DNA of 33,056 bases, taken from positions 1 through 33,056 of the forward strand of contig JASJBV010000026.1 in assembly GCA_030066335.1 (NCBI GenBank), written 5' to 3'. The DNA comes from Gammaproteobacteria bacterium. GTDB taxonomy: Bacteria > Pseudomonadota > Gammaproteobacteria > GCA-001735895. This document shows, piece by piece, positions 12,180 to 33,056 of this stretch. The notes under the pieces were generated by a model that worked only from the letters and a program-made list of their open reading frames with translations, had not been told where the DNA came from and did no database searches. The translations under genes and the position numbers were made by a program. Numbering within the stretch: the stretch's first letter is position 1; each line of letters begins with the position of its first letter.

Positions 12180-12791
12180 TTATCCCCTGGTTGCCAGCAG
12201 AACCGAGTGAAACCCGCAGCTTTCATCTTCCAGTTTAATCTCGATATTGTTAAATCCCAATGAATTTAAGATTGATTCGTATTCATCGGGTTCCAGGCTG
12301 GAATGATAAACCTCCTCGCCTTCCACCATGCCCGTTACTTCGCCCGCTTCATGGCCAATCGTCAGCAGCAGGGAGCCTTCGGGATTAAGATGCTCGGCAA
12401 ATAAAAACAGCACCTGGCGCTGTTCTTGTTGGGTCAAATGAAAAAATCCATCCCAGCTGATAATGCCGTCGAAGCTTACATCCAGTTTCAGTTCCCGCAT
12501 ATCCATATTTATCCAGCTGGCATCCGGAAAACGTGACCGCGAAATCTCCAGCATATTTGCTGATGCGTCAAGCCCGGTTACATCAAGCCCGCATTCGAGA
12601 AGATAGCCGGCGATCGGTTCGCCAGCCCCGCAACCGACATCCAGGACGTGGCCCTGAGCAGGTAACCGGCGGATGAATTTATCCATCCAGGGCTGTTCGA
12701 AAAATACCCGCGGCCGATGTTCATCCCAGGCCTGTGCATGCTTCTCATAGATTTCTATGGTCCGGTGGTGGATTGTATCTAGTTTACCCAT
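12180..12791 (-). CDS. class I SAM-dependent methyltransferase
   Basis: HVLDVGCGAGEPIAGYLLECGLDVTGLDASANML is motif I/II. Confidence 0.93.
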   Translation of the reverse strand: MGKLDTIHHRTIEIYEKHAQAWDEHRPRVFFEQPWMDKFIRRLPAQGHVLDVGCGAGEPIAGYLLECGLDVTGLDASANMLEISRSRFPDASWINMDMRELKLDVSFDGIISWDGFFHLTQQEQRQVLFLFAEHLNPEGSLLLTIGHEAGEVTGMVEGEEVYHSSLEPDEYESILNSLGFNNIEIKLEDESCGFHSVLLATRG

Positions 12792-12853
12792 AACACCTGA
12801 GTATGGAATGCACAGAAAGCGCTGCGTCCGTCGCCGGTGGAGCTTTGTTGGGC
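12788..12853 (-). repeat. attC-like site of the 12862-13257 cassette; leftmost convincing site
   Basis: Gene-sense GCCCAAC-AAAG...GTTATGG. Both ends match the attC core consensus (RYYYAAC / GTTRRRY-like). It lies directly after the VOC gene stop. Confidence 0.65.
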
Positions 12854-12861
12854 GGAATCAC

Positions 12862-13257
12862 TTACTGGCTAATCCGCAATACATGACCATCAGGATGACG
12901 CAGATGGCACTCGCGGACACCCCAGGGCAGGTCTTCAGGTGGGAAAACCACTTCGATGCCGGATTCCAGGGCCATGGCATAGATGTCATCCACATTGTCC
13001 ACCCAAATTGACATCCATGAGCCCTTGTCCTTTGTTTCGTTCCCGCCCGGTCCAAAGGTGCTGGTATTGTCACCTTTACCGCGTCCGCCTTGTCCGTCCT
13101 GACACAAGAAAATCTCGCATTCCCCAGACCCAACCGAGCCGAAACTGGCAGGATCGCCCCAATCCCACTTCTTTTCCCATCCCAGGCTCTCGAACCATTC
13201 GAAGCTTTGCTCCAGGTTCGAGACATTCAGGATCGGATTAATCGCTTTTGCTCTCAT
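12862..13257 (-). CDS. VOC/bleomycin-resistance-like protein
   Basis: AINPILNVSNLEQSFEWFESLGWEKKWDWG...LPWGVRECHLRHPDGHVLRISQ. Confidence 0.92.
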   Translation of the reverse strand: MRAKAINPILNVSNLEQSFEWFESLGWEKKWDWGDPASFGSVGSGECEIFLCQDGQGGRGKGDNTSTFGPGGNETKDKGSWMSIWVDNVDDIYAMALESGIEVVFPPEDLPWGVRECHLRHPDGHVLRISQ

Positions 13258-13322
13258 TCGCTATGCCTCCTGTTTACGAGATCAAGCAGCGGAACCGCAA
13301 ACCATCAACCTCCAAGGTCGTA

Positions 13323-13724
13323 TCATTTAACCGCTAGCTCGGCGTTGTATAGCCACACATAAATCACCCCGAAGGTCACGATGTATATGATTGAACTGAC
13401 GGTGAAATTAGATAAGTTTTTAGAAGCGGATTTAGCCGCTGAACGGACTGCATCCGGGTCGTCGCCAATCGACCTAATCTTCGCTTTACTGGCTTTGGCC
13501 TGTCTTATGCCAAAGATAACCAACAGGATCGAAGCCAGACCCAGGTGCCAGGTAAAAAACTGGTGCAGTGATAGGAACAATAGCGTCCATGCGGTTGCTG
13601 CCGAATAGATTAGAAGAATCGGAAATGCCTTCCAGAAATAATTTTCGTGGGTGGAAAAACTGAATATCTGTATGACCACGAGATGGGTGACCAATAAGAA
13701 AACAAGGTATATGAGTATCTCCAT
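13323..13724 (-). CDS. hypothetical membrane protein
   Basis: 133 aa with several hydrophobic helices. Confidence 0.65.
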   Translation of the reverse strand: MEILIYLVFLLVTHLVVIQIFSFSTHENYFWKAFPILLIYSAATAWTLLFLSLHQFFTWHLGLASILLVIFGIRQAKASKAKIRSIGDDPDAVRSAAKSASKNLSNFTVSSIIYIVTFGVIYVWLYNAELAVK

Positions 13725-13789
13725 TTTATTGTTTTAATACCCAAGCTTCAGCATAAGGAGTTTTGCCCATCATCTCACGATTCTCAGGC

Positions 13790-14806
13790 CTACCATTGAT
13801 GTTCCTCTTTAATGATGCGCATCCGTGGAACAGATCCGCCAAAAACAGGATGGCGAATGATACGCTCTTTATTCGGATTCTTACCGGAGCGGTATTTTAT
13901 CCAGGCTTTCTTGACACCACCTATGCCGCCAAATATTTGCACCAAATTCATTAATCCTTCATCGATATCGTCCGCGCTATGAATGGTGAGTGCCTCAGTG
14001 TCAAAACCCAAATATATATAATCATCCTGATCGACAATAAACTTTAAGCCAATCATAAAATTATCGGGTGCCACCAGATGCTCTTCTCCCTGTGTTGGTG
14101 GGTGATTAAGCCAGGAAACGGTCTTGGATCTGGCAGTGAAAACTTGATTAAAATCATTTGCAAAGTCCATTAGATCATTATCACTTTGCATATTCTTATG
14201 TTTATTGAAAAGCTCAAGGATAAGATCTTTCTTTTCCCTGTCTTTGGTGAGCAACCGTACAAGAGCAGTTTTGTATCTTCTATCTTTGCCAAAATCCATC
14301 TTTTCATATAGCTCTGTCTGTTTCTGCAGAGCTATCGGATCTACCGGTTTGTCTTTCTTCCGGCTTTGTTTTGCTTTTATCGCTCTTTTCTTTTTTCGTT
14401 CTTCCGCGGGATCCTTGATCTTAAACTTTTTATAGACGCTGTTATATTTTTGCAATGAGCATTTTGCATTGTCAGCTATGCAGAAGTTTTCAGTACTGTG
14501 ATCATCAAATATAGTTTTCAGCTTGATGCCATGTACTGCTGTTAAAGATAACCAGTCACATAATTCATCTATGGTCACGCTTGGATATTTTGATCCGTAA
14601 CAAAATATCCTGATCTCATTCTTACTTCTTGCGAAACCTTCAATTGGGTATCTATCCGTTTCGCTGGCAAGTTCCAGGTTCAATAATTTGCTTATTACAA
14701 CCTCAAGATAATCTTGCTTTGACTTTATATCTGTCTCGTATTGCTTGATGATATTTTCAGCATCCTGTTCTGTATGATAAAGAATGTATATCTCATAACT
14801 TTTCAC
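13790..14806 (-). CDS. hypothetical protein
   Basis: 338-aa ORF with a central Lys-rich segment (EERKKKRAIKAKQSRKKDK); no family recognised. Confidence 0.8.
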   Translation of the reverse strand: MKSYEIYILYHTEQDAENIIKQYETDIKSKQDYLEVVISKLLNLELASETDRYPIEGFARSKNEIRIFCYGSKYPSVTIDELCDWLSLTAVHGIKLKTIFDDHSTENFCIADNAKCSLQKYNSVYKKFKIKDPAEERKKKRAIKAKQSRKKDKPVDPIALQKQTELYEKMDFGKDRRYKTALVRLLTKDREKKDLILELFNKHKNMQSDNDLMDFANDFNQVFTARSKTVSWLNHPPTQGEEHLVAPDNFMIGLKFIVDQDDYIYLGFDTEALTIHSADDIDEGLMNLVQIFGGIGGVKKAWIKYRSGKNPNKERIIRHPVFGGSVPRMRIIKEEHQW

Positions 14807-14949
14807 AGCGGTAAGACTCCCTAATCATTTTATTTATATTAAATTTTGTCAGATGCCGTCCATATATGAGCATCTATTGAGTGGCGAAGAACGCAAAACT
14901 CAGTTTGTGTTTTTTCTTGCTACTTAAGGCGCTGGTTATTATCCAGCAC

Positions 14950-15555: not shown

Positions 15556-15581
15556 GGAAGTTTCCTTGCTTATTCTTAGTT

Positions 15582-15688
15582 TTTCAACGCGGAAAAAGTG
15601 TCACGTTTTACTGGGTGCGATGAGCTGCGATAGCAGCGAATCTGCCTATCAGCAATGAGTATAGGCAAAATAGATTCGCTTGTTAGGC
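15582..15688 (-). repeat. attC-like site of the 15683-15997 cassette (long, stem-rich)
   Basis: TTTCAAC-G...CTT-GTTAGGC. Internal inverted repeat AGCGAATCTgCCTAT (15635-15649) / ATAGGCaaaatAGATTCGCT (15661-15680). Confidence 0.75.
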
Positions 15689-15997
15689 TTCATTGCTCTG
15701 ATAAAACACCTCGTAGAGCGCAGAGGTTTCCTCTTTTTCGAGCAGGTAGTCATCATCCTCCGGATAATATTTTGCTTTCTCCGGGTTTTCTCCGGCAAAT
15801 TGCTTAACCGCTTCCATGGAGTCCCAATGGGTGACTAACAAGAAATGCGCAACGTCGGCCTTAACGTTTTTGAGGAACATTAATTTTTTTAGACCATCCA
15901 CTGAGCTGTAATCTGGTACAGCTCTCTCTTTCATGAATTCTGCGTAATCATCAGCCTTGGACACCTCGACCATGCCATGCCATATTCTAACGATCAT
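15683..15997 (-). CDS. antibiotic biosynthesis monooxygenase (ABM)-like protein
   Basis: MIVRIWHGMVEVSKADDYAEFMKERAVPDYSSVDGLKKLMFL...FLLVTHWDSMEAVKQFAGE. The TAA stop is shared with the attC core. Confidence 0.85.
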   Translation of the reverse strand: MIVRIWHGMVEVSKADDYAEFMKERAVPDYSSVDGLKKLMFLKNVKADVAHFLLVTHWDSMEAVKQFAGENPEKAKYYPEDDDYLLEKEETSALYEVFYQSNEA

Positions 15998-16588: not shown

Positions 16589-17561
16589 TCATTGTGTACC
16601 CATGACAACGATTTTGCCCCCGGCCTGGTTCGCATCCATTAACTGATGCGCCTGAACAAGTTCCTCAAATTTGAACACCGGACCGGTTTGAATCATTAGC
16701 TGACCTTGCGCTACCAATTCAACATAGCGTTGAAGCTGTTCAGTGCTGATATCGGATGCGCCGCCACTGTAAGAAGTCAACTTGACGCCGGTCGGGATAT
16801 CGCCCATCGGTTCGAAGTTCTCCAGGGTCCACTTGCCACCCAGGATACCGGTCATGCAGACAATGCCACCACTGCTCACGCAACCTAGTGAATCCAGCAG
16901 GGTAGTGGTTCCAATCAGTTCCAGCACGCGGTCAAAAGGCCGGTGCTCACTATCCTCGAGCTGCCGTGCCAACGATCCGTCATCAACCCAGACCTCGTCG
17001 GCACCTGCCGCCTTGAGCATGTCAATTTTTGCTGGACTTCTGGATGTGGTGGCCACAAATAACCCGGCATCTTTGGCCAGGGCCAGGGCGGCCATGCCTA
17101 TGGAGGACGTACCGCCACGGATCAGAATCGATTCGGCACGCTCGATCTCAAGCCCGGTATGCAGGGAACCATGCGTGGTCTGCAGCATTTCCGGCAGCGC
17201 GGCTAAATTCTCCCAGGGCAGTTTGGTTGACAATGGAAACACATGCGTGTGGAACCAGGGTGTACTCCGCGTAGGAGCCATCGAATTCCCGGCCCATGCC
17301 GCCCATGATTGCAGCCACCGTGCTGCCGGTCTTGATATCCAGTCCTCCGCCATCCACCAGTTCTCCCACACATTCTATGCCGAGCACCCGCGGGAACTGC
17401 ACCGACGGGGAGTCGCCATTGCGGGTAAACCACTCTGACCGATTGAGTCCGAACGCCCGGATTCGAATCAATGCCCAGCCGGGGCGAGGTTCAGGGCGAT
17501 CGACTTCCTCCAGCGAGAACTGGTCCGGGCCGCCGGGTTGTCTGATGATCCATGCTTTCAT
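16589..17561 (-). pseudogene. MDR-family zinc-independent alcohol dehydrogenase, interrupted by a frameshift near 17235-17252
   Basis: ORF 17148-17561 (MKAWIIRQPGGPDQFSLEEVDRPEPRPGWALIRI...FDGSYAEYTLVPHAC) continues only in another frame in ORF 16589-17371 (...HVFPLSTKLPWENLAALPEMLQTTHGSLHTGLEIERAESILIRGGTSSIGMAALALAKDAG). Confidence 0.85.
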
Positions 17562-17722
17562 GACAAGGATTAAGTTCCATGTTGAACATTATCTGGTCGC
17601 ATAACGTCCCGTATCTTCGACCAGGCTGGGCGTATGGCGAGCAATTGGCTCGACTGCTGGCGCTGGTTAAGCGGTTCTTCGCTTTATTCTTGAATACTCC
17701 AGTTCCATTCGTCGAGGTTATG

Positions 17723-18181
17723 TCAGGCGGCTGTCTGATTCAAGCGACGTAAACGTCCTGACAGCCTGAATCCATCACGCATGTTCAACGACATTAAGGT
17801 CAGGTTGATGCCGCCGGCGATTAGTTCGAGCCCCTGAACCAGGTAGAAAGACAGGCCAAAATTCCCGGTTGTGGCGAGGTGGTCGAGGTAGATCGCAGCT
17901 GGCAGCAGGATCAGAATTCCGTTGGCAGCGATAAATGGCATCCGCCTTTTCTTGTTATCGATCAATCCAGCTTTGCGTTTGGACGAGAGTGCAAAGCCGG
18001 TTGCACCGGTGATCGCTATTGCAGGCACCAGAATGAACAGGCCCGGGCTGACAATGAGACCCTTGACGGTGGTAATCATGGCAAGGCTTGCAAATAGTTC
18101 GACAACAATGGTGGAAACAAAAAATGTGCCTATACATAGCGTGGCGATGAGGGCCGCAAACAGGTGAATGACTTGTTTCAT
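17723..18181 (-). CDS. hypothetical polytopic membrane protein, divergent from the marR-like gene
   Basis: 152 aa with about 4 hydrophobic segments; GGAGGAAATACC before the ATG at 18181. Confidence 0.8.
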   Translation of the reverse strand: MKQVIHLFAALIATLCIGTFFVSTIVVELFASLAMITTVKGLIVSPGLFILVPAIAITGATGFALSSKRKAGLIDNKKRRMPFIAANGILILLPAAIYLDHLATTGNFGLSFYLVQGLELIAGGINLTLMSLNMRDGFRLSGRLRRLNQTAA

Positions 18182-18202
18182 GGTATTTCCTCCGGTCGGA
18201 AA

Positions 18203-18241
18203 ATTGACAAGATACTGTCATTATGACAATATCTTGTCAAT
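18203..18241. promoter_or_regulatory. candidate MarR-family operator (inverted repeat) in the divergent promoter
   Basis: ATTGACAAGATACTGTCA-TTA-TGACAATATCTTGTCAAT: 18-bp arms with one mismatch and a 3-bp spacer, between two divergent start codons. Confidence 0.8.
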
Positions 18242-18261
18242 TGTTTATTTACGAGAAATTC

Positions 18262-18705
18262 ATGAAGCACAGCGCCAAAGGCCATACTTTTACCGAAATC
18301 GTTATCGAATCGTTCAAACTGAGCGGGCTGCTCGCCAACGAAGGGGATCGTATCGCCGCGCCACTCGGCCTCAGCAGTGCGAGATGGAAAATTCTGGGCG
18401 CGTTGGCACGGTCTGAAACCCCGCTCACGGTGTCGCAGATTGCGCGAAATATGGGGCAGTCCCGGCAGGCAGTCCAAAGCCTGGTCAACATCATGAGTGA
18501 AACAGGTCTGATAGAGTTTCAGAACAATCCCAATCACAAGCGTGCCAAGCTGGCTGTTCTGACGCCTACAGGCGTGAACTCATATCAGGAAATGGAGGCG
18601 ATCCAGATCCCATGGGCAAACGACTACGCCAGTCAAATGACGATTGATGATCTGGAAAGAACGCTCGTAACGCTGAAGAAAATTTCAGGATTGTTTAGCG
18701 CTTGA
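18262..18705 (+). CDS. MarR-family transcriptional regulator
   Basis: LSSARWKILGALARSETPLTVSQIARNMGQSRQAVQSLVNIMSETGLIEFQNNPNHKRAKLAVLTPTG is a winged helix. The start at 18262 avoids the operator; the track ORF starts inside it (18223). Confidence 0.9.
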   Translation: MKHSAKGHTFTEIVIESFKLSGLLANEGDRIAAPLGLSSARWKILGALARSETPLTVSQIARNMGQSRQAVQSLVNIMSETGLIEFQNNPNHKRAKLAVLTPTGVNSYQEMEAIQIPWANDYASQMTIDDLERTLVTLKKISGLFSA

Positions 18706-18796: not shown

Positions 18797-19018
18797 TTAC
18801 TTTCGTCTTTTCTTGAGCCTGAAGCCGATATAAAAGGCGATGCCAAAAGCCAAGCTTGTTACCGGATATACGAGTAACATAGCGAGATAATGGTAGCCCC
18901 CGCTACCCTCAAAAGTTGGATCTTGAGGATATGTTATATACCCAATGATTCCTGCAACAGCCAATCCAACCAGGGCTCCTAGAAAAAATACGAATATACC
19001 TTGTCGCTTTATATCCAT
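18797..19018 (-). CDS. small hypothetical membrane protein
   Basis: 73 aa, two hydrophobic segments and a basic tail RLKKRRK. Confidence 0.6.
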   Translation of the reverse strand: MDIKRQGIFVFFLGALVGLAVAGIIGYITYPQDPTFEGSGGYHYLAMLLVYPVTSLAFGIAFYIGFRLKKRRK

Positions 19019-19145: not shown

Positions 19146-19643
19146 CTAACTGCTATACACATAAAGTGTTTCCAATTCGCTGGGATCTGACAGTAATGGC
19201 ATCTTTGTCTCCGTGGCTACAAATCCCAATTGTCGGTAGAATTCAATTGCCGCTTCATTACTGTCAGCGACCCATGCGTGGATTTGTTCTGCACCCCGCT
19301 GATGCAGCCACTCAGCGGCTGCATTGAATAAGCGGGTACCAATGGCTTGTCGCCTAACTTTTGGGGATACCCACATAGCACAAATATACGCACGTCCTTC
19401 GGTGGTCTCGAAGAAAGCACCAATCTGGCCGACTGCTGAGTTAGACTGGGTTGCCAAAAAGGTAGTTGATTTTTCTGACTGGGAGTGGGACCTGGCCGCT
19501 TCCTCAAATTCTACCATCGGTTTTTTTCGCTCATCCTCAAGTTTCGCGCCAAAGGCGCCCGGTGAATCAGTAAGTGCAGCCAGCCTCACAGTGCGTAAGA
19601 GCATACCTTCATCTTCATTTATCCTGTGGATTTCAATAATCAT
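19146..19643 (-). CDS. GNAT family N-acetyltransferase
   Basis: ICAMWVSPKVRRQAIGTRLFNAAAEW...NEAAIEFYRQLGFVAT. Confidence 0.92.
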   Translation of the reverse strand: MIIEIHRINEDEGMLLRTVRLAALTDSPGAFGAKLEDERKKPMVEFEEAARSHSQSEKSTTFLATQSNSAVGQIGAFFETTEGRAYICAMWVSPKVRRQAIGTRLFNAAAEWLHQRGAEQIHAWVADSNEAAIEFYRQLGFVATETKMPLLSDPSELETLYVYSS

Positions 19644-19650: not shown

Positions 19651-19725
19651 AGTTAACGCTGGGATACCGGACTCAGTGACAGCGAGATTGAACCGGCAAT
19701 AGGGCTCCATTTGATCCATTTGATA
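19651..19725 (-). repeat. degenerate attC-like site
   Basis: AGTTAAC-GCT at the R' end; the opposite core is eroded (CATTTGATC). Confidence 0.4.
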
Positions 19726-19731
19726 TAAACT

Positions 19732-20361
19732 TTATTTAGGGTTTGACTCAACATCCTTCAATCCCAGCATGATTGCCGCTGCAATCAAGAAAGAACCTGA
19801 AATCTTGTTTAGGTGCTTACGCGCGGAAGGGATTAATTTTTGACTTAACCATTCGGCAAACTTTGCATAAAAGCACAGGAAGCTTGCGTCCATCAGCAAG
19901 TAGGTTGAACTCAAGATAGAGAACTGTAAAAGTAAGTTACCCTCGGGGTTAATGAACTGAGGAAACAATGCCGCAAAGAAGATGACAGCTTTCGGGTTGG
20001 CTGCTGAAGTTACGAAGCCCTGCCAGTACAGAGAGTGGCCTGATCGAACTTGTTTTTGTCGATCGATGATGACGCCTTGTTTGGAGAAGATTAACCGTAA
20101 ACCGAGATATACGAGATAGATAACCCCGGCCCACTTCACGACCAGGAAAAAATCCCGGGAACTGGCAATAATGCTTACCAGGCCGACAGAGGCGACGACC
20201 ATTTGAATGAAATTGGCCGTTAAGTCACCTGCCGCGGTGAATAGCGACCTTTTGAAACCATTGCTGATACTGTTGGATAAGATCAGAAGCTGGCTTGGGC
20301 CGGGTGTGCTCATCAATACAAGCACCGTACCTATGTATACGATCCAAACATCAATATTCAT
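19732..20361 (-). CDS. LysE/RhtB family transporter
   Basis: LVLMSTPGPSQLLILSNSISNGFKRSLFTAAGDLTAN...FVTSAANPKAVIFFAALFPQFI. Confidence 0.94.
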   Translation of the reverse strand: MNIDVWIVYIGTVLVLMSTPGPSQLLILSNSISNGFKRSLFTAAGDLTANFIQMVVASVGLVSIIASSRDFFLVVKWAGVIYLVYLGLRLIFSKQGVIIDRQKQVRSGHSLYWQGFVTSAANPKAVIFFAALFPQFINPEGNLLLQFSILSSTYLLMDASFLCFYAKFAEWLSQKLIPSARKHLNKISGSFLIAAAIMLGLKDVESNPK

Positions 20362-20439: not shown

Positions 20440-20805
20440 TCACACCCAAACATCATTTTCAGCAGTGAGGTCACTTTCTGTGTCACCAGTATTCACAACC
20501 CCTTTAGGCTCTACCAGCATGATTTTACATTCATCTCTCGCCACCGGTTTATGCTCAATGCCTCTCGGGACTATGAACATCTCGCCCGATCCGAGGGTAA
20601 CGCTTCCATCCCTGAACTCAATATCTAATGTCCCTTCAAGCACGATAAATACCTCATCCGTGTCAGGATGATCATGCCATACGAATTCGCCCTGAACTTT
20701 AACTAGTTTGAATTGGTAGTCATTCATCTCGGCAACGACTCTGGGAGACCAATGCTCGCTGAATTTTGCTAGCTTATCTTTAAAGTTAATTGGTAGGTAG
20801 TTCAT
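20440..20805 (-). CDS. cupin domain protein
   Basis: [64 protein letters not shown]...[14 protein letters not shown]. Start chosen at 20805 because the longer ORF runs into an attC-like site. Confidence 0.93.
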
Positions 20806-20819
20806 AATTTTGTACTTAC

Positions 20820-20891
20820 ACCCAACTCCTAGAAACATTCGCAAAAGCGTGCGTCGCGGTACATTGGCCTGAGCTCATGCCCTTGTTTTTT
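20820..20891 (-). repeat. degenerate attC-like site
   Basis: ACCCAAC (perfect RYYYAAC) ... CCCTT-GTTTTTT (eroded). Confidence 0.4.
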
Positions 20892-21201
20892 AACTTTCAC
20901 CTGGGTTGCTATCACTTTTCTTTACCCTGACATACCTTAAGAACTTGAAAACTATCCAGATACAAATAAGTGCTATGAATCCAATTTCGTACCATTTGAG
21001 ATCTGTACTGTTACCAAATGCACTATCAAAGTTGCTTAAACCTCTCCAGCAGCTTGCTTGCCATAGTGAAAGAAGCGTAATAATGATCCATTTTATATAT
21101 GGCCTCTTTTTCGCGCGAACCTCAAAGAAATCCATGAGTACCAGAGTCACAACTATAATCGCGGCACCGAACACGAATACAAAACGTATAAAATCGTCCA
21201 T
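20890..21201 (-). CDS. small hypothetical membrane protein
   Basis: 103 aa with 3 hydrophobic segments. Confidence 0.65.
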   Translation of the reverse strand: MDDFIRFVFVFGAAIIVVTLVLMDFFEVRAKKRPYIKWIIITLLSLWQASCWRGLSNFDSAFGNSTDLKWYEIGFIALICIWIVFKFLRYVRVKKSDSNPGES

Positions 21202-22910: not shown

Positions 22911-22947
22911 CAGCTAGCGCCGCCAGCAGTGGCTGGCCTTGTTATGA
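22911..22947 (-). repeat. short degenerate attC-like site
   Basis: CAGCTAGCG (core TAAC mutated to TAGC), GCCAGC-AGT-GGCTGGC hairpin, CCTT-GTTATGA. Confidence 0.45.
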
Positions 22948-24041: not shown

Positions 24042-24114
24042 GCCTGACGTCTCTCTTTAAATATGAGATGACCGATTGGCGGACATTTGATCCGACTGCA
24101 TGGGCATGTTCGAC
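24042..24114 (-). repeat. degenerate attC-like site of the 24150-24824 cassette
   Basis: GCCTGACG...GATGACCG..GGACATTTGATCCGACTGCATGGGCAT-GTTCGAC aligns with the attC at 32033-32101 (GATCGACCG..GGAGATTTGATCCGATGCAGTGCCTT-GTTATGC). Confidence 0.5.
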
Positions 24115-24149: not shown

Positions 24150-24824
24150 TCAGATTGACTTGACCTCAGGTTGAATAAGATTCAGAACGGTGCGCATGTC
24201 TCTTCCGGAGAAAAGAAACTTGATAACGATACAGGCGGATGCCTCAAGGAGCCTGGCATACTTGAGCTCACCTACATCAACCGGATCGCAGCCTAGATTA
24301 TCAATTAATTCCGCAACCTGGGTTTTTGCTTCGGATTGGTCCCCACAATAAAGCGCAACCAATTTACGCCCGTCGAATTCCGGAGGTTCCATTTCCCACA
24401 CGGAGGCCTGGCACATATTGAAGGCTTTGACTATCTGAGCATCAGGTATCAGAGCGGCTATGTGCTCGGCCAGGGAGCCCTCGTTGAAAATGGTCGGAAG
24501 GTAATACTCTCCCTCGTTATCGTGCGGTCCACCGGGCACGTTAACGGGATTGTTTATATCAATGACCACTTTGCCGGAAAATGCCTCGGCTCCGCCGCCA
24601 CTTTGAATGGCATCTGCAACTGCATTTGCGGGGGTGGCGAAGACAATTACATCACCGAATTCAACGGCTTCGGAAATCGAGCCACTTCCAGATGCTTGTA
24701 TCTGCTGGGCTAGCTCAGCCGCAGACTCTGCATTTCTTCCACCAATGAATATTTCGTGCGAGGTTGCCCAGCGCTTTGAAAGGGCCTTAGCCATGTTGCC
24801 GTAACCAATAAATCCGATCTTCAT
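24150..24824 (-). CDS. NAD(P)-binding / NADPH-F420 reductase-like oxidoreductase
   Basis: MKIGFIGYGNMAKALSKRWATSHEIFIGGRNAESAAELAQQIQ...VVIDINNPVNVPG...IVKAFNMCQASVWE. Confidence 0.88.
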   Translation of the reverse strand: MKIGFIGYGNMAKALSKRWATSHEIFIGGRNAESAAELAQQIQASGSGSISEAVEFGDVIVFATPANAVADAIQSGGGAEAFSGKVVIDINNPVNVPGGPHDNEGEYYLPTIFNEGSLAEHIAALIPDAQIVKAFNMCQASVWEMEPPEFDGRKLVALYCGDQSEAKTQVAELIDNLGCDPVDVGELKYARLLEASACIVIKFLFSGRDMRTVLNLIQPEVKSI

Positions 24825-24850
24825 CTTGTCTCCTCGTGTAGTTTGAGTCT

Positions 24851-24921
24851 ACTGCATCGTATCATTCGTCGCTGCACTCGAGAGACGAGTGGAACGGTCA
24901 TGCTGCATGTGATGGTTATGT
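24851..24921 (-). repeat. degenerate attC-like site of the 24916-25596 cassette
   Basis: Internal hairpin ACTCG-AGAGA-CGAGT and R''-like GTTATGT containing the gene stop. Confidence 0.4.
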
Positions 24922-25596
24922 TTGTACGGTAGTTAATCTAATCTCATATTGCCATTGCTCGTTGACCTCAAGAATGACATCTGCTGACTTCATATAGGGT
25001 TCAACGTACAACTTGTATGCAGTCAGTTCATCTCTCAATTTGAGGTTCGAATATTCTACTGATTGTTTTCTTTTCTCGATATCTGCTTTGTGCCTTATCT
25101 TCAAAAGAAGATTATCGTTTGTATGCATAAAAATCGAATAGCTTATGTATGGCTTCAGGCTCTGATGCATTGAATGAAGACCGTCCAAAAACAGGATATG
25201 GCATGGATTTATCGTGATCTTTGAAGGCAAAGTTTTACCTTCAGCATGATCGTATGGAAAGCATTCAATTGGAGTGCCCTGTAAAAACCCATATAGATTA
25301 CTTTTGATTTTTGCTAGATCGTATGCTTCTGGCTGATAGCCACTTATGTCCAGATCATTGCGCTTGGATCTGTCCATTAGGTAAGAGTCGAGAGTAATAT
25401 GAGATGCATTGAGCCCGCTTTTTACCAATGCGCTAACAAGCTGGCGAGAAAGCTGCGATTTTCCAAGGTCGGCGGCGCCGCATATTGCAACTAGCAAAGG
25501 GTTACCATCGAGGGCTGATGCTTGCTGGCTAATAGCCCCTACCAGGTCGTTGAATTGGATGACTTCACCATATCTGTTTGAGCTAGACGAAGCCAT
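24916..25596 (-). CDS. uridine kinase-like P-loop kinase
   Basis: Walker A GAADLGKSQ; ILFLDGLHSMHQSLKPYISYSIFMHTNDNLLLKIRHKADIEKR. No ATG between the attC-embedded start and Walker A. Confidence 0.8.
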   Translation of the reverse strand: MASSSSNRYGEVIQFNDLVGAISQQASALDGNPLLVAICGAADLGKSQLSRQLVSALVKSGLNASHITLDSYLMDRSKRNDLDISGYQPEAYDLAKIKSNLYGFLQGTPIECFPYDHAEGKTLPSKITINPCHILFLDGLHSMHQSLKPYISYSIFMHTNDNLLLKIRHKADIEKRKQSVEYSNLKLRDELTAYKLYVEPYMKSADVILEVNEQWQYEIRLTTVQT

Positions 25597-25667
25597 AACG
25601 CCTCGCGTTTACCGCCAAATTGACGGCACAGCCGGCAATGTTATCTGGCTGCAAGCGCTCGTTATGA
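25593..25667 (-). repeat. attC-like site of the 25674-25955 cassette
   Basis: CCATAAC-GCC ... CGCTC-GTTATGA. Confidence 0.7.
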
Positions 25668-25673: not shown

Positions 25674-25955
25674 TTAATCACTTTCTCCGCCATTGCTTTG
25701 AGTCGGCCTTTCTGTCGTAATATTGTGTGACCGTGACCCAGGTACCTCATTCTCTTTAAGATTATCTTCTTCCAGGATCCGGTTTATCGTCCAGGCCACT
25801 AAGGCTCCTAGAAAAGGCAGAGAAAAAATTAATATTAACTGAAAGAATTTCTGACGTTTGTTCAGAAACTTGCTTTTTACTACATACACGCTCGATATCA
25901 GCATAATTAGTAGAGCGACTAATAATGTAACTATAAGAAACTCGATTGGTTCCAT
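25674..25955 (-). CDS. small hypothetical membrane protein
   Basis: 93 aa, two TM segments and a polar tail. Confidence 0.65.
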   Translation of the reverse strand: MEPIEFLIVTLLVALLIMLISSVYVVKSKFLNKRQKFFQLILIFSLPFLGALVAWTINRILEEDNLKENEVPGSRSHNITTERPTQSNGGESD

Positions 25956-26085: not shown

Positions 26086-26367
26086 TTAATTTTTACTTTT
26101 AACCAATGGAACGAAAGTATCATTGAGCAAGCTAGTTAGCATAGATAACAGTACCGCACTCATCGCTACTAGATGAGGGTCGGTTGTGTAGTTTGGCACC
26201 ACTGCCACTGCAATAATAATTGGAGCAACCGTAAATACCGACCAGCCAGGAACACTCACTCTTTCGCCACAGCTTCTACATGGAGCTGAGGTAAGAGGGC
26301 CCAAAAAACTTCGACGCAATGGCGGCAGACAATAGCCGCCACAATGTGGACATTGATCTGTACTCAT
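26086..26367 (-). CDS. small zinc-ribbon-like membrane protein
   Basis: MSTDQCPHCGGYC...APCRSCGERV, then two TM segments; AGAAGG upstream of the ATG at 26367. Confidence 0.75.
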   Translation of the reverse strand: MSTDQCPHCGGYCLPPLRRSFLGPLTSAPCRSCGERVSVPGWSVFTVAPIIIAVAVVPNYTTDPHLVAMSAVLLSMLTSLLNDTFVPLVKSKN

Positions 26368-26427
26368 TTTTATACCTTCTTTAGTTTCTGATCCCATTAC
26401 TTGATTAATGATATCCAGGCTTTTACG

Positions 26428-26505
26428 CATAAAGTTTGAGGTAAGGGGCCGAGCGGTAGCCAGGTCCCAGCGAACAAAAGGGGTTAACTTGCCCGCTTGT
26501 TATGT
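26428..26505 (-). repeat. attC-like site of the 26521-26967 cassette (R' eroded)
   Basis: CATAAAGTTTGAGGTAAGGGGCCGAGCGGTAGCCAGGTCCCAGCGA...CGCTT-GTTATGT; near copy of the 29417-29494 attC. Confidence 0.7.
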
Positions 26506-27083: not shown

Positions 27084-28055
27084 TCAATCAACTGTAATCA
27101 CCACTTTCCCTTTAAAACAGCCCTTTCCAAAATACCAGAATGCCTCAGTAATTTCACTCAATGGGAAACACTTGTCTATAACTGGCTTAACTTTACCAGA
27201 CTCAAACAATTCATTAATAATATTCAGGCCTTTATTTGGTTTGTGAAGTACTAAAGTCAATGTCTTGTTATCTTTCTTTTTAATCAAGGGACCAAGCAAT
27301 GCGAGTTGCAATATTGAAGAGGTTTTACCACCAACGGATGCGTAAATACCGTTTGAACTTAATGCTCGCTTATAAGCAAAAATTGAACGATTTGACCTAA
27401 CATCAAGAATAAAGTCGTAATGCTCACCATTTTTCGTAAAATCGTTTTTCCGATAATCAATAACATGATCTGCACCGAGAAAAGACATTGCCTCTAATTT
27501 CTCCGTGCTGTCCACAGCTGTAATCTTCGCGCCAAATGTTTTTGCTATTTGGATGGCGAACGTTCCCACACCTCCACAACCGCCATTGATTAAAATACTG
27601 CTACCCTGCTTAATCTCATTTTTCATTTGAAATGCTTGTAAGGCAAGAAGTGCTGCCTGGGGTGTGGCTGCTGCCTCTTCAAACGACATTTTAGAGGGCT
27701 TTAGTGATAACCCCGATTCACGGGCACAGACATATTCCGCAAAGCCGCCCCAATTACCCCCACTCAGGTCTCCATATACCTCATCGCCTATATTTAAATT
27801 TCTTACATTTCTACCAACTTTTTCAACACGTCCAGCTATGTCGCAGCCAAGAATATTAGCTTTTTTGGGTCTGAGTAACCCGCTAAACAGACGATATTCA
27901 TACGGTACTCCGGTTAACATGTCCCAATCCCATGAGTTTATGGATGCTGCATGAACCTTTAGCAATACCTCATCATCTTTCGGTGATGGTATCTCTACAT
28001 CAGTTAATGAAAGAACATCAGGAGCCCCATATTTTTTGTATACAGCAGCTTTCAT
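27084..28055 (-). CDS. MDR-family NAD(P)-dependent alcohol dehydrogenase/quinone oxidoreductase
   Basis: MKAAVYKKYGAPDVLSLTDVEIPSPKDDEVLLKVHAASIN...SILINGGCGGVGTFAIQIAKTFGAKITAVDSTEKLE. Confidence 0.95.
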   Translation of the reverse strand: MKAAVYKKYGAPDVLSLTDVEIPSPKDDEVLLKVHAASINSWDWDMLTGVPYEYRLFSGLLRPKKANILGCDIAGRVEKVGRNVRNLNIGDEVYGDLSGGNWGGFAEYVCARESGLSLKPSKMSFEEAAATPQAALLALQAFQMKNEIKQGSSILINGGCGGVGTFAIQIAKTFGAKITAVDSTEKLEAMSFLGADHVIDYRKNDFTKNGEHYDFILDVRSNRSIFAYKRALSSNGIYASVGGKTSSILQLALLGPLIKKKDNKTLTLVLHKPNKGLNIINELFESGKVKPVIDKCFPLSEITEAFWYFGKGCFKGKVVITVD

Positions 28056-28111
28056 GTAGTCACTTGATTGGAATATTGTTGTTACAGCTCAATACATTTT
28101 GCACTCGGAGA

Positions 28112-28158
28112 CCTAATGTTTAAATAAGAAGCCGAGCGACTTAAACCACTTGTTAGGC
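28112..28158 (-). repeat. short degenerate attC-like site of the 28171-28470 cassette
   Basis: CCTAATGTTTAAATAAGAAGCCGAGCGAC...CCACTT-GTTAGGC; shares AAG.AGCCGAGCG with the 29417 attC but lacks its central portion. Confidence 0.55.
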
Positions 28159-28170: not shown

Positions 28171-28470
28171 TTACTGGATGAGCCATGATATTAGTTTATA
28201 CTCAGCTGTAACGACAGCTAAACATAACGCTATAAATACCCAACCATGATAACCTGCCCATGATTCTTCTTCTGTCGCTCTGATAGTCTCTGAATGAAAC
28301 AAGTTGTCTAGCGAAAAGAACAAATCTTTAGAGTTTTGAAAGAATGTTTTCGCGATAACAAAATAAACCGGAATATTTAGCAATAACAGAATAATCCATA
28401 AAATTGTATTTTCTGCCAAGAAAGAAGTGGCCACTATCACAATAGTGATGCTCAGCAGAGATCCAATCAT
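28171..28470 (-). CDS. small hypothetical membrane protein
   Basis: Start set at MIGSLLSITIVIV (28470) because the longer ORF to 28506 runs into the attC. Confidence 0.7.
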   Translation of the reverse strand: MIGSLLSITIVIVATSFLAENTILWIILLLLNIPVYFVIAKTFFQNSKDLFFSLDNLFHSETIRATEEESWAGYHGWVFIALCLAVVTAEYKLISWLIQ

Positions 28471-28479
28471 TATCTTCGA

Positions 28480-28559
28480 TGTTAACCTTTGCTCAGAGAG
28501 CCGCATGCAGTTTGCACGGTCCCAGCGACCGTAGGGAGCAACTTGACCTGTTTGCTATG
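28480..28559 (-). repeat. attC-like site of the 28565-28990 cassette
   Basis: TGTTAAC-CTTTGC..GGTCCCAGCGACCGTAGGGAGCAACTTGACCT-GTTTGCT. Confidence 0.6.
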
Positions 28560-28564
28560 CATAT

Positions 28565-28990
28565 TCATGAAGATACTTGTTTAATATCAATGCGCCCATA
28601 GTGCTCTTGCATGCGACGGGACTTAACTAGATAGACTGACATGACAATGTAGTAGAGAACCTCTCTGGCCAAGTCGAAGTACCTACTATCGTTCGTCATG
28701 AAATCAAAGGTTTGTATAAAACACATTGTGGCTAACATAGAAAAGAGAATCATCATCGCAATCGGGGTAAATTTCCATCTAGTAAAGTAACCGACTAAGT
28801 AAACTGTTCCTGATAAAGTAATGATTAACCAATGAAAAAATTGCGTACCGCTTGGAAAACTGGCGTTTTGAAGTGGTATAAAAAGCACGATGTCGAAGAA
28901 ATATTCTAAAAATCCAAGCACTCCCCAACAGAGCATAGTTATCGAGGCCAGCAGGATAAGGTAAGAAAAAAGCATTGACACATGTTTCAT
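28565..28990 (-). CDS. hypothetical polytopic membrane protein
   Basis: 141 aa with 4 hydrophobic segments. Confidence 0.75.
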   Translation of the reverse strand: MKHVSMLFSYLILLASITMLCWGVLGFLEYFFDIVLFIPLQNASFPSGTQFFHWLIITLSGTVYLVGYFTRWKFTPIAMMILFSMLATMCFIQTFDFMTNDSRYFDLAREVLYYIVMSVYLVKSRRMQEHYGRIDIKQVSS

Positions 28991-29024: not shown

Positions 29025-29087
29025 ATATAACGCCTCAGTAACCGGGGCAGCTTTGCTGCGTCCGGTACCGTAGGCGCTTAGTTGATT
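29025..29087 (-). repeat. attC site of the 29094-29411 cassette
   Basis: ATATAAC-GCC...CCGGGGCAGC-TTT-GCTGCGTCCGG...GGCGCTTA-GTTGATT. Confidence 0.8.
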
Positions 29088-29093
29088 GACTTT

Positions 29094-29411
29094 TTAAGGG
29101 CGTTCATCGACTGAATAATTGCTTATGTATTTTTTCACTAGGTCTTCAATAATATTGCCCAAAAATACAAGTAAAGCTAGCATCGGGATTCCAAGTAACA
29201 AATATATACCTGGCCATGCCATACCCCTTAAAATCCATGATCCATCTATCGCCAATAGCAACCCATGCTGCATTACGACAGGAAGCTGTAAAACAATAAA
29301 CTTTCCTTTTGGATCAGATATAAATTGCGCCCAGATTACACAGACAATTATGATAGCTATATAAAGCGCACCTAATATTAAACCTGTTTTACTAAGCTGT
29401 ATGATTTTCAT
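29094..29411 (-). CDS. hypothetical membrane protein
   Basis: 105 aa with TM segments. Confidence 0.7.
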   Translation of the reverse strand: MKIIQLSKTGLILGALYIAIIIVCVIWAQFISDPKGKFIVLQLPVVMQHGLLLAIDGSWILRGMAWPGIYLLLGIPMLALLVFLGNIIEDLVKKYISNYSVDERP

Positions 29412-29416
29412 TATTC

Positions 29417-29494
29417 CCTTAACGTTTAAGGTAAGAGGCCGAGCGGTAGCAGGTCCCAGCGACCGAAGGGAGCGCCATGACCCACTTGTTAGCT
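29417..29494 (-). repeat. attC site of the 29489-29821 cassette
   Basis: CCTTAAC-GTTTAAGGTAAGAGGCCGAGCGGTAGCAGGTCCCAGCGACCGAAGGGAGCGCCATGACCCACTT-GTTAGCT. Confidence 0.85.
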
Positions 29495-29821
29495 GTGAAT
29501 TTGATATCGTGCGCTCCAGTATAACTTAATGAATACTACGAACGAAAAAAATGTAGACAAAGGCAAAAGTACAATGAGAGGTATGAATTGCACTATATTT
29601 GCAAGCATCAACAAGCCGAAAACACAGGCCAACCCCAACAGAAAATAAAACTGATACAATGCAGCCATAAGACCAACTTGAATTATTTTTATAAAATTAA
29701 CTTGATTACCAGCGATGAGAGAATAAGGGTAGAGCAAACCCATTATCCCAACTGCCAGTAAAATTACCGGTAGAAAGGTGAAGGAAGCAAAAGCTATATT
29801 CTTAAACGTGGTTATATCCAT
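29489..29821 (-). CDS. hypothetical membrane protein
   Basis: MDITTFKNIAFASFTFLPVILLAVGIMGLLYPY...; TM-rich; stop TAA inside the attC core. The track's start at 29836 is GTG inside an attC. Confidence 0.7.
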   Translation of the reverse strand: MDITTFKNIAFASFTFLPVILLAVGIMGLLYPYSLIAGNQVNFIKIIQVGLMAALYQFYFLLGLACVFGLLMLANIVQFIPLIVLLPLSTFFSFVVFIKLYWSARYQIHS

Positions 29822-29834
29822 GGCAGGTCTAATC

Positions 29835-29914
29835 ACCCAACGCTTGGCTAAGAGCGCGCAGCATCCTGGAGCGTCCCAGCCACCGCAGAGAGCAACTTGA
29901 CGACCTTGTTAGTA
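29835..29914 (-). repeat. attC site of the 29909-30352 cassette
   Basis: ACCCAAC-GCTTGGCTAAGAGCG..GCGTCCCAGCCACCGCAGAGAGCAACTTGACGACCTT-GTTAGTA. Confidence 0.85.
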
Positions 29915-30352
29915 TGCTTTTGGCACCCTGACCATAAAATAGTGAATTTCATTTTCACCCGTAATTTTAAAACCGTGACGTTTATACAAAGAACCGACCG
30001 GGTTCCACTTTAAGTATTCCAATACTACTTTATGAGAGTTTTTATCACATTCGTTTAGAAATTTGGTAAGGACATTTGTACCAATACCTTTGTTGCGATA
30101 TGCATTTTTGATATAAAACTCTCCAAGCCTCATTGCTTCCTGGTTTTCAGCTATAGACACAGTCCCAATCGGCTCGCCTTCTAATAATATTATGAACCAC
30201 GGCTTTTCTAGCCATCTTTGTTTGTGAAGAGCTAACTGGAAGTCTTCATCCCAGCCCCACTTAGACTTTATATAAGAGCCCATGGCATCTTTCTTAACTT
30301 CAAATGCAAACTCAAAATCACTTTCCGATGCCTTCTTTAGCTCAATGTTCAT
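29909..30352 (-). CDS. GNAT family N-acetyltransferase
   Basis: LGEFYIKNAYRNKGIGTNVLTKFLNECDKN...VGSLYKRHGFKITGENEIHYFM. Confidence 0.94.
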   Translation of the reverse strand: MNIELKKASESDFEFAFEVKKDAMGSYIKSKWGWDEDFQLALHKQRWLEKPWFIILLEGEPIGTVSIAENQEAMRLGEFYIKNAYRNKGIGTNVLTKFLNECDKNSHKVVLEYLKWNPVGSLYKRHGFKITGENEIHYFMVRVPKAY

Positions 30353-30358
30353 ACATCA

Positions 30359-30438
30359 CACTAACGCTTATATAAAGAGCGTGCAGCGATGCAGAGCATC
30401 CCAGTCTAGGTTTCTTCTGCTGGTTGTACTTGTTAAGC
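30359..30438 (-). repeat. attC site of the 30433-30855 cassette
   Basis: CACTAAC-GCTTATATAAAGAGCG...GTACTT-GTTAAGC. Confidence 0.8.
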
Positions 30439-30855
30439 AACATTTGCTTGCATTGAAATGACATGCTCATTTTGACCTGTTTGGGTAAACCCTAAACGTT
30501 GATATAAGTTCCTGGCTGGATTAGAGCTAAAAACTCTTAGTCGTAAATATTTAAAGCCACGCTCTTTAGCTAATGCAAAGGCTAATTTTGTAGCTAATGT
30601 ACCAAGCCCAATATTTTGGGATGCCTTCTCAATTTGTAAATCTCGAATATACAAGGCTTCACTATCACTGGATAAGCGTAAAATTCCAACTTTAATTTGA
30701 TTTGATAATATAACGAAGTTTTCCATTTGCCCCCAGCTGGATTCAAATAAGTCAGTTTGCCATTCGATACCATATTCTTTGTAGTAGCGATCCATATTTT
30801 CACGCACTAATTTTTGAGCGTACTGCTTATCTTCAGTATGGCAAAGCTCGATCAT
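30433..30855 (-). CDS. GNAT family N-acetyltransferase
   Basis: LYIRDLQIEKASQNIGLGTLATKLAFALAKERGFKYLRLRVFSSNPARNLYQRLGFTQTG. Confidence 0.94.
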   Translation of the reverse strand: MIELCHTEDKQYAQKLVRENMDRYYKEYGIEWQTDLFESSWGQMENFVILSNQIKVGILRLSSDSEALYIRDLQIEKASQNIGLGTLATKLAFALAKERGFKYLRLRVFSSNPARNLYQRLGFTQTGQNEHVISMQANVA

Positions 30856-30865
30856 TATTCTGGCT

Positions 30866-30931
30866 GCTTAACGCCTACAACAGAGGAAAATCGACCGCAG
30901 GGAGTGAATCTTGTGGAGCTGATTGTTAAGT
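30866..30931 (-). repeat. attC site of the 30926-31306 cassette
   Basis: GCTTAAC-GCCTACAACAGAGGAAAATCGACCGCAGGGAGTGAATCTTGTGGAGCTGATT-GTTAAGT. Confidence 0.82.
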
Positions 30932-31306
30932 TTCAGATGCATCTTGTGAAATTTTATAAACCCAATGAGCGCCAATTAAAATCGGGAAAAACCATAGTGA
31001 AATTAATATATTGAATATTTGGCTAATGCTAAGTTCACCTGCTAAAAAGAGGTAGACAATACTCAGTACTCCGGCCAAATAGTAATAAATATATCTTTTT
31101 GGCCTTAAATTTACCGCAAACTCAAGATACAAAAACATTCTCCACAATGAATATACGCCAAGGATACCGCCAATATAAGTTGGAATAATCAGTTCGGGTC
31201 GAAGTAATGCTCCAATTGGGAAAAACAAAGTTGAATACAGAATAACGCCTGTAGATGGTAATACCACCACGATGAACTCAATCCAGTGTATAACGCGCTC
31301 GATCAT
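30926..31306 (-). CDS. hypothetical membrane protein
   Basis: 126 aa, TM-rich. Confidence 0.75.
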   Translation of the reverse strand: MIERVIHWIEFIVVVLPSTGVILYSTLFFPIGALLRPELIIPTYIGGILGVYSLWRMFLYLEFAVNLRPKRYIYYYLAGVLSIVYLFLAGELSISQIFNILISLWFFPILIGAHWVYKISQDASET

Positions 31307-31310
31307 TAAA

Positions 31311-31421
31311 ACTTAACGCCCAGCTAAGCCGCCGGAACGGAATTGATTGTTTTGTGCGAGCGTAGCGGAAAAGCACAAAACGAGCGACGCAGTGTAGATC
31401 GGTTTGAGCTGCTTGTTAGCC
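31311..31421 (-). repeat. attC site of the 31416-32009 cassette (long)
   Basis: ACTTAAC-GCCCAGCTAAGCCG...GTTTTGTGC (31349-31357)/GCACAAAAC (31373-31381)...GAGCTGCTT-GTTAGCC. Confidence 0.88.
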
Positions 31422-32009: not shown

Positions 32010-32032
32010 TGAAAGTTAGTTCGTCGTGTTAT

Positions 32033-32101
32033 GGCTAACGCCGTACTCAGCGGGTAGATCGACCGCAGGGAGATTTGATCCGATGCAGTGCCTTGTTATG
32101 C
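32033..32101 (-). repeat. attC site of the 32047-32604 cassette
   Basis: GGCTAAC-GCCGTACTCAGCGGGTAGATCGACCGCAGGGAGATTTGATCCGATGCAGTGCCTT-GTTATGC. Confidence 0.88.
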
Positions 32102-32604
32102 CTACTTAGTATTTTTAGTACGCGTTTGTTTTTTAACATACTTTTTGTGCCGCTAACACTTAGATATTTTTGTTTTTGCGGATGCTTGTTTAGTTTAAAA
32201 CCCAACTTTTCGTAAAGGCGTATTGCTGCAATGTTGTTCTTTAAAACCTCAGTTACTAACTTATCGAACTCCTCATTTAAAAGAGACTCTCTCGCTGCAT
32301 TTAAAAGTGCTAATAAAACTGGCCCACTACGATATTTTGGCAATATTTGAATAGATGAAATGTATATATCATTTTCATTATCCCAACTTCTGCAATATTG
32401 TAAGTAACCCGCAGTAGCACTATTAACTGATGCAACAAAAATAGTTGGATTACCCTCGAACCCTTTTCTTCTCATTTCTTCAGGAAATGTTACTCCGGCA
32501 TCAGAAAGTATTTGCCCCATTGTCAACTTATCTAGTTCAACTAATTGATCATCGAGTCCATCGACAAAAACCTCTGGCCCTATAAATTTTCTGATCTTGA
32601 CCAC
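32047..32604 (-). CDS. GNAT family N-acetyltransferase with attC-encoded C-terminus
   Basis: IYISSIQILPKYRSGPVLLALLNAARE...NNIAAIRLYEKLGFKLNKHPQ; the frame stays open into the attC, giving HNKALHRIKSPCGRSTR. Confidence 0.85.
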   Translation of the reverse strand: MVKIRKFIGPEVFVDGLDDQLVELDKLTMGQILSDAGVTFPEEMRRKGFEGNPTIFVASVNSATAGYLQYCRSWDNENDIYISSIQILPKYRSGPVLLALLNAARESLLNEEFDKLVTEVLKNNIAAIRLYEKLGFKLNKHPQKQKYLSVSGTKSMLKNKRVLKILSRHNKALHRIKSPCGRSTR

Positions 32605-32621
32605 GTTCTATCTCTATAGGC

Positions 32622-32680
32622 ATAACGTTTAAGCTAAGGGGCGCCGCTTTGCGGCGTCCCGATTGAGCGCCTTGTTAGAA
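32622..32680 (-). repeat. attC site of the 32685-33032 cassette
   Basis: ATAAC-GTTTAAGCTAA-GGGGCGCCGC-TTT-GCGGCGTCCCG-ATTGAGCGCCTT-GTTAGAA. Confidence 0.88.
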
Positions 32681-32684
32681 GGCG

Positions 32685-33032
32685 CTAATTCCAGTTTATT
32701 TTAAAAGCCTTAGTTTTAGATTTAACATCAGGCCAAATTACTAGCTCATTACTGTGAGTATAGTAATACCCAACAGATTGCTCTGGCGATGGGTTTAGCA
32801 CGCCCACACTAGATTGTGATTTAACAAAATGAACAAGTATTTCATCTGGTGGGCCTTTATATTGCCCCATTACCTTTTTTATTAATTTAGTGGCCTGAAC
32901 GTCATTTTTTATTTTTAACTCACTACAGAGAACATACATTACATCTTGTTTTTCGTAACCTGGTACTACACTGTCACATTCAGCATATGCCAGTAAGGGT
33001 GTTAACAAGATGAGTGCGATGCTCTTTTTCAT
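32685..33032 (-). CDS. hypothetical secreted protein
   Basis: 115 aa with signal peptide-like MKKSIALILLTPLLAYAECD. Confidence 0.75.
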   Translation of the reverse strand: MKKSIALILLTPLLAYAECDSVVPGYEKQDVMYVLCSELKIKNDVQATKLIKKVMGQYKGPPDEILVHFVKSQSSVGVLNPSPEQSVGYYYTHSNELVIWPDVKSKTKAFKINWN

Positions 33033-33037
33033 AAGCC

Positions 33038-33056
33038 TTCTAACGCTTTACTGAGG
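33038..33056 (-). repeat. start of a further attC site, truncated by the window edge
   Basis: TTCTAAC-GCTTTACTGAGG has the same R' end layout as the other attC sites, immediately upstream of the 33032 start codon. Confidence 0.65.

Follow-up and report, generated by a model that had tools for sequence, protein, structure and literature searches.

Introduction

In Vibrio and Xanthomonas, sedentary chromosomal integrons carry long one-way arrays in which small cassettes are accompanied by attC sites, and many of the genes belong to no known family (PMC12444791, PMC11023631). IntegronFinder places arrays in the CALIN class (clusters of attC sites lacking an integron-integrase) when they contain two or more attC sites but have no nearby intI. 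The authors of IntegronFinder 2.0 have described CALINs as proposed degraded integrons; they contain almost six attC sites on average, with the warning that draft genomes inflate their number (PMC9024848).

The window analysed here is a contig stretch of 33,056 nucleotides from an uncultured gammaproteobacterium. It resembles the Vibrio and Xanthomonas integrons in its one-way array of small cassettes, its attC sites and its many genes without a known family, but differs from them in three respects: no integrase is seen in the array, the attC sites are heterogeneous and more degraded the farther they lie from the presumed attI, and the position of the array is not conserved within the genus. 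Because two or more attC sites are present but neither the contig nor the rest of the assembly contains an intI, the array is formally a CALIN, larger than the average one; this assignment is provisional, since the contig breaks off on the side expected for the integrase.

Results

Approximately 28 small genes fill the region from ~15.6 kb to ~33.06 kb, almost all of them in minus orientation (Table 1). An earlier note on this DNA had described more than 20 mostly single-gene units, nearly all of them minus-strand, which agrees with our count; the exception in strand is one MarR gene on the plus strand. Its description of the products as mostly unknown proteins was overstated, as 14-15 of the ~28 lack a Pfam match. 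Most cassettes contain a single gene in a single orientation and move as units of gene plus attC. In gene orientation, many spacers start with TAACAAG and finish with CGTTA; read on the plus strand this is YYYAACG...CTTGTTRRR, the recurrent motif noticed previously. An Rfam search of the whole window returned no match, and PADLOC found no convincing defence gene among ten proteins. The ankyrin protein was rejected as a defence gene, since its match to a candidate system (E 8e-14) is due to the repeats.

attC sites were sought with a covariance model, R1, trained only on other genomes, from which 27 attC sites were taken, nearly all at intI-bearing loci. The model has 18 pairs, and 84% of its paired cells can pair, compared to 26-41% when the pairing is slid. 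The best 12 R1 matches in the window all lie on the minus strand, all overlap intergenic spacers and all rank ahead of the first plus-strand match. The top three (34-41 bits; E 7e-8, 2e-7 and 4e-6) are located at 31.3-32.7 kb, and weaker matches continue leftwards as far as 17.6 kb; nine of the 12 are individually weak (E 0.03-0.93). An attC covariance model had been proposed as the test that could refute an integron, and its outcome was positive. A scan for two boxes plus a stem gave 21 minus-strand and one plus-strand match at a score of at least 20 (1.75 in shuffled DNA), and seven and none, respectively, at a score of at least 28 (0.0 in shuffled DNA). R''/R' boxes around an imperfect palindrome are present in the window. 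The two-box scan replaced a looser box-and-stem scan, which was dropped as its plus-strand matches were as numerous as those on the minus strand. A strict search for RYYYAAC...GTTRRRY found only six pairs in the window and is uninformative, since the motif and its reverse complement are identical. Most sites fold no better than shuffled DNA, and folding was set aside as proof of attC. The attC score declines with distance (Spearman -0.60, p 0.019), a modest trend in which weak matches are pooled. The sites at 26.4, 28.5, 29.4 and 29.9 kb form a sub-family of similar sequences; the remaining sites differ.

Table 1. attC sites and genes of the array, from the broken right end leftwards. G and C numbers denote related genomes and their contigs.
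Position	Strand	Feature	Scores and relatives
33033-33056	-	cut attC, R' half only	contig end severs site; AAGCGTTAGAAGG
32685-33032	-	cassette ORF, 115 aa, no Pfam	
32620-32680	-	attC	R1 39.5 bits, E 1.7e-7; BLASTN homologue is attC in G023
32047-32604	-	cassette ORF, GNAT acetyltransferase	C-terminus read from attC
32033-32101	-	attC	R1 33.8 bits, E 3.9e-6; homologous attC in G007 C222 and C541
31416-32009	-	cassette ORF, 197 aa membrane protein, no Pfam	41% relative on attC-bearing G007 C37
31311-31421	-	attC	R1 41 bits, E 7.2e-8
30926-31306	-	cassette ORF, 126 aa membrane protein	
30866-30931	-	attC, weak in R1	R1 15.2 bits; two-box 33.2; 92%/36 bp to G028 attC
30433-30855	-	cassette ORF, GNAT	
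30359-30438	-	attC, weak	R1 8.6 bits; two-box 27.7
29909-30352	-	cassette ORF, GNAT	
29835-29914	-	attC, weak	R1 16.4 bits; two-box 25.6; 87%/39 bp to G003 attC
29489-29836	-	cassette ORF, small membrane protein	
29417-29494	-	attC, weak	R1 14.7 bits; 80%/64 bp to attC in G003 C130
29094-29411	-	cassette ORF, small membrane protein	
29025-29099	-	attC, weak	R1 14 bits; fold z -3.05
28565-28990	-	cassette ORF, membrane protein	
28487-28557	-	degenerate attC	no model match; 77%/61 bp to attC 29835-29914; repeat family D1
28171-28506	-	cassette ORF, membrane protein	
28111-28158	-	attC, short	R1 13.5 bits; two-box 32.3
27084-28055	-	cassette ORF, zinc-type alcohol dehydrogenase	77% relative adjoins attC in G004 C48
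26973-27075	-	attC, weak	R1 13.3 bits; 68%/99 bp to attC in G007 C383
26521-26967	-	cassette ORF, AHSA1-like (just under cut-off)	
26427-26505	-	attC, weak	R1 11.3 bits; 87%/52 bp to attC 29417-29494
26086-26430	-	cassette ORF, no Pfam	
25674-25955	-	cassette ORF, no Pfam	
25593-25667	-	attC	R1 17.6 bits; two-box 29.6; fold z -2.0
24916-25596	-	cassette ORF, PRK/uridine-kinase-like	
24847-24921	-	degenerate attC	two-box 24.8
24150-24824	-	cassette ORF, F420/NADP oxidoreductase-like	
24042-24114	-	degenerate attC	two-box 23.1
23427-24020	-	cassette ORF, no Pfam	
22942-23337	-	cassette ORF, membrane protein	
22912-22947	-	attC remnant	R1 9.1 bits, E 3
22418-22909	-	ORF, DUF695	
21229-22332	-	ORF, ankyrin repeats	
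20890-21201	-	ORF	39% relative adjoins partial intI in G003 C134
20440-20844	-	ORF, cupin	65% relative among strong attC sites in G016 C20
20343-20433	-	degenerate attC	two-box 20.5
19732-20361	-	ORF, LysE translocator	
19651-19728	-	degenerate attC	R1 7.4 bits; two-box 20.8
19146-19643	-	ORF, GNAT	
18797-19018	-	ORF, small membrane protein	
18223-18705	+	MarR regulator, opposite strand	one cassette with 17723-18181; 77% DNA identity to G014 array
17723-18181	-	membrane protein of MarR cassette	72% aa to G014 array
17599-17672	-	attC, leftmost well supported	R1 14.9 bits; two-box 32.5; aligns with G014 attC, same place
16589-17561	-	alcohol dehydrogenase cassette, disrupted reading frame (two ORFs that overlap)	85-86% aa relative between attC in G035 C94
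16111-16527	-	ORF, GFA-like	83% relative in distal G014 array
15683-15997	-	ORF, 104 aa, no Pfam	
15598-15688	-	possible attC remnant; of its halves only R'' is good	two-box 21.0, left box 19.1; fold z -2.3

Arrays of attC sites are present in related genomes, some of them adjoining intI. Five attC sites of the window have BLASTN homologues that are themselves attC sites in G003, G007, G023 and G028, and the genes adjoining these five have no tblastn match in the homologous stretches. Relatives of window genes lie between or next to attC sites in G004, G014, G016, G020, G035 and G038. Single cassettes reappear beside different neighbours in other genomes, and genomes of the same genus have only scattered single genes in common with the window. 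An array in the same family (G014, contig C40) shows the same succession of strong and then weak attC sites, and shares with the window the MarR/membrane protein cassette and the GFA gene, in the same order; the similarity of the former stops at the attC. The G014 array differs in that it has an intI, that its proximal cassettes are unlike those of the window, and that the alcohol dehydrogenase is absent between the shared units.

No intI was found in the assembly, a metagenome-assembled genome that is 82% complete and in 230 contigs. The contig breaks within an attC on the right, the side expected for intI, and a second small array, on contig C90, likewise ends inside an attC. The earlier placement of attI and intI to the right of position 33056 agrees with the orientation of the array and with this break. 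An intI above the cut-off occurs in many relatives, including two genomes of the same genus, but its site is not conserved: the gene is a neighbour of argH in a different genus of the family (G014, G016, G031, G037) and adjoins an ABC transporter operon in G001. Neither place holds an intI in the present genome. Both were rejected as the location of a missing intI, as argH in this genome and genus precedes other genes (DUF501-like, esterase) and the operon is absent. At its left end the window carries an acuI-like gene, as found on the chromosomes of relatives, and no contig joins both flanks; the idea of using acuI to mark the distal flank was rejected, as its neighbours differ in relatives. 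The array could be a true CALIN, a sub-case of the integron reading in which the integrase has been lost and a relic array is shuffled only by an integrase acting in trans. The lack of intI in the assembly, the many degraded attC sites, the broken intI of G020 (same family) and the published proposal that CALINs are degraded integrons all fit this possibility. The incompleteness and fragmentation of the assembly, the two contigs ending inside attC sites, the inflation of CALIN counts by draft genomes and the intact appearance of the three rightmost attC sites speak against it, and we consider it a possible but not the probable outcome. The array has probably been cut off by the assembly, and we lean, if only slightly, towards an intI that the assembly failed to capture over one that has been lost.

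The earlier note had extended the array leftwards to position 12788. Support for attC stops near 15.6-17.6 kb: neither R1 nor the two-box scan detected an attC in the spacers from 12.8 to 15.6 kb, nor any enrichment of attC over 1-15 kb as a whole. Some adjoining genes within the array also have no attC between them (e.g. 20890/21229 and 16589/16111). It is unlikely that the whole contig from 0.6 to 33 kb is one integron that has lost every attC in its leftmost 15 kb. The left part does contain the same kind of small single genes on the same strand, and the GNAT gene at 5955-6401 has counterparts in G020 and G038 that are cassette genes with strong attC sites on either side. However, apart from the lack of attC enrichment, several spacers there are too short (8 and 16 bp) or the genes overlap, and the region contains the assembly's single DUF188 gene, a gene whose loci in relatives have no strong attC nearby. 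That the array is instead a set of unrelated small genes, with terminators or other palindromes mimicking attC in the spacers, might be argued from the weak mid-array scores and the folding at shuffled level, but is highly improbable in view of the strict strand bias with no plus-strand match at equal score, the E-values of an independent model and the homologues of its attC sites that adjoin different cassettes in other genomes; for 25-33 kb it is already refuted.

Discussion

The right half of the window, from ~15.6 to ~33.06 kb, is almost certainly the distal part of a sedentary chromosomal integron, as the earlier note had proposed; the model matches, the attC arrays in relatives and the cassettes with changing neighbours all support this interpretation. 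What we observe is an ordinary integron array, with good attC sites near the broken right end and worn-out ones leftwards. Its mostly single-gene cassettes would each once have been followed by an attC. New cassettes would enter at an attI that we place to the right of the contig, beyond position 33056, through an IntI tyrosine recombinase that acts on the bottom strand of attC in its folded form. Older cassettes would thereby be shifted to the left, where their attC sites may decay and their genes become fixed; this order of ages is our reading of the leftward weakening of the sites.

A more tentative idea, which we consider doubtful, is that cassettes leave the integron as ordinary fixed chromosomal genes, so that the integrons of this family would be one-way conveyors; this would show as attC sites disappearing steadily the farther a gene lies from the integrase. 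The genes at 1-15 kb that now lack attC would therefore have been delivered by the integron.

The array alone is an element of an expected kind. It brings in an uncultured family of Gammaproteobacteria that is rich in integrons, together with ~14 cassette proteins that belong to no known family, and arrays whose attC sites fade with distance make the question of how a cassette becomes a permanent gene testable.

attC sites and array limits

The earlier note had placed a chromosomal-integron cassette array at 12788-33056. To avoid circularity, we trained an attC covariance model (R1) only on sites from other genomes, almost all from loci that also contain intI. In the resulting 27-site alignment, 84% of cells are paired in the expected structure (R''/R' followed by L''/L', with a single base skipped), compared with only 26-41% when partner columns were slid as a control. 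The top 12 R1 matches in the window all lie on the minus strand and overlap spacers: three strong sites are followed by nine weaker ones from 30.9 to 17.6 kb. The best plus-strand match ranks thirteenth and is just 20 bases long. A second method, combining two position-specific boxes with a stem score, agrees: at a score of ≥20 it returned 21 minus-strand sites, 1 plus-strand site and 1.75 in shuffled DNA, and at ≥28 the counts were 7, 0 and 0.0. This two-box scan of the window found no attC excess in 1-15 kb. Thus, support for the array extends leftwards from the right end to 17.6 kb and perhaps to 15.6 kb, and does not reach the proposed left limit of 12.8 kb. Gene calls bore out the minus orientation of nearly all window genes.

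Features of the window and their counterparts in other genomes
Feature	Position	Strand	R1 (bits)	Observation
attC	32620-32680	minus	39.5	DNA match is attC in G023
GNAT ORF	32047-32604			C-terminal end encoded by attC 32033-32101
attC	32033-32101	minus	33.8	DNA match is attC in two G007 contigs
attC	31311-31421	minus	41 (E 7e-8)	
attC	30866-30931			DNA match is attC in G028
attC	29835-29914			DNA match is attC in G003
attC	29417-29494			DNA match is attC in G003
Dehydrogenase	27084-28055			77% relative in G004, adjoining an attC
Cupin	20440-20844			65% relative in G016, amid attC sites
MarR/membrane pair	17723-18705			77% DNA identity to unit of G014 intI-bearing array
Palindrome (near-perfect)	18202-18242			Between MarR gene and divergent membrane gene
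attC	17599-17672			Equivalent in position to G014 attC ending MarR/membrane unit
Alcohol dehydrogenase	16589-17561			85-86% relative in G035, flanked by attC sites
DUF188 gene	6410-6856			60-71% to relatives
GNAT gene	5955-6401			65-66% relatives in G020 and G038, flanked by strong attC sites
acuI-like oxidoreductase	1-445			Left contig end

Sites and cassettes shared with other genomes

Five window attC sites have DNA matches that are attC sites elsewhere. R1 scores these counterparts at 28-36 bits, and three of the five window sites reach only 15-16 bits. The adjoining window genes, used as tblastn queries, gave no match in the counterpart stretches at the cut-offs used. From sequence comparison, a site shared without its gene is the pattern that would be predicted for gene cassettes.

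Cassettes also recur as units. The MarR/membrane match in G014, a genome of the same family, begins past one attC and fades at the following one, and a GFA gene comes next in both arrays. Same-genus genomes otherwise gave scattered single-gene matches only, on separate contigs. The palindrome is likely a MarR operator, giving a cassette with its own regulation.

Towards the left end, the DUF188 gene, the sole one found in the assembly, lies 8 bp from the GNAT gene that is a cassette gene elsewhere; its same-genus relatives are no closer than those of other genera. The acuI-like gene adjoins prp (methylcitrate) genes in G003 and G007 and has no prp neighbours in the window.

The missing integrase

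Cassette orientation places the expected attI and intI to the right of the window, and the right contig end falls within the R' half of a further attC. As the earlier note had observed, the window contains no integrase; none scored over the cut-off in the whole metagenome-assembled genome (3.04 Mb, 230 contigs, 82% complete), of which the window is one complete contig. The only intI relative there is a Xer-like recombinase on contig C29. intI is frequent in the family, and two same-genus genomes have it. In another genus of the family, a broken intI adjoins a long attC array (G020 C1, L050, near 71.9-72.5 kb). A tyrosine recombinase at about 2900-3675 of G007 C215 (L202), flanked by attC sites at 956 and 3840, resembles IntI at a level of only about 30%.

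A second, plus-reading array occupies 1-2138 of contig C90 (L194) of the source genome. This contig starts inside an attC; three more follow, all directed away from the broken end, and ordinary genes begin at about 2.4 kb. Since both contigs are cut inside an attC, the genome has at least two arrays broken on the integrase side. A lone attC (28 bits) adjoins a 79-aa ORF at 1518-1588 of contig C218 (L195). As IntegronFinder defines it, the window is a CALIN, a cluster of attC sites lacking an integron-integrase, but the tool's authors caution that draft assemblies overstate the number of CALINs, since contigs break at attC sites that resemble one another (PMC9024848).

Probable ageing and content of the array

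R1 score falls with distance from the window's right end (Spearman -0.60, p 0.019). The same test gave -0.58 in G020, -0.89 in G014 (inflated, as its sites are in the training set) and no significance in three other arrays. In established integron biology, IntI acts on attC as a folded single strand and recombines it with attI, which leaves the newest cassettes beside intI. We read the fall as ageing, in which attC sites would decay distally and cassette genes become fixed. The distal alcohol dehydrogenase is broken into two overlapping frames, whereas the relative in G035 aligns in one frame; it is either a pseudogene or an assembly error.

The cassettes had been described as mostly unknown proteins. 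About half of the array proteins lack a Pfam family, with many small membrane proteins among these, and "mostly" is an overstatement. There are five GNAT acetyltransferases, counting the leftmost, and other typical cargo (dehydrogenases, cupin, LysE exporter, GFA, DUF695, ankyrin); none of ten proteins tested was a convincing defence gene. We regard this as an ordinary sedentary-integron array, a new example of a kind already known.
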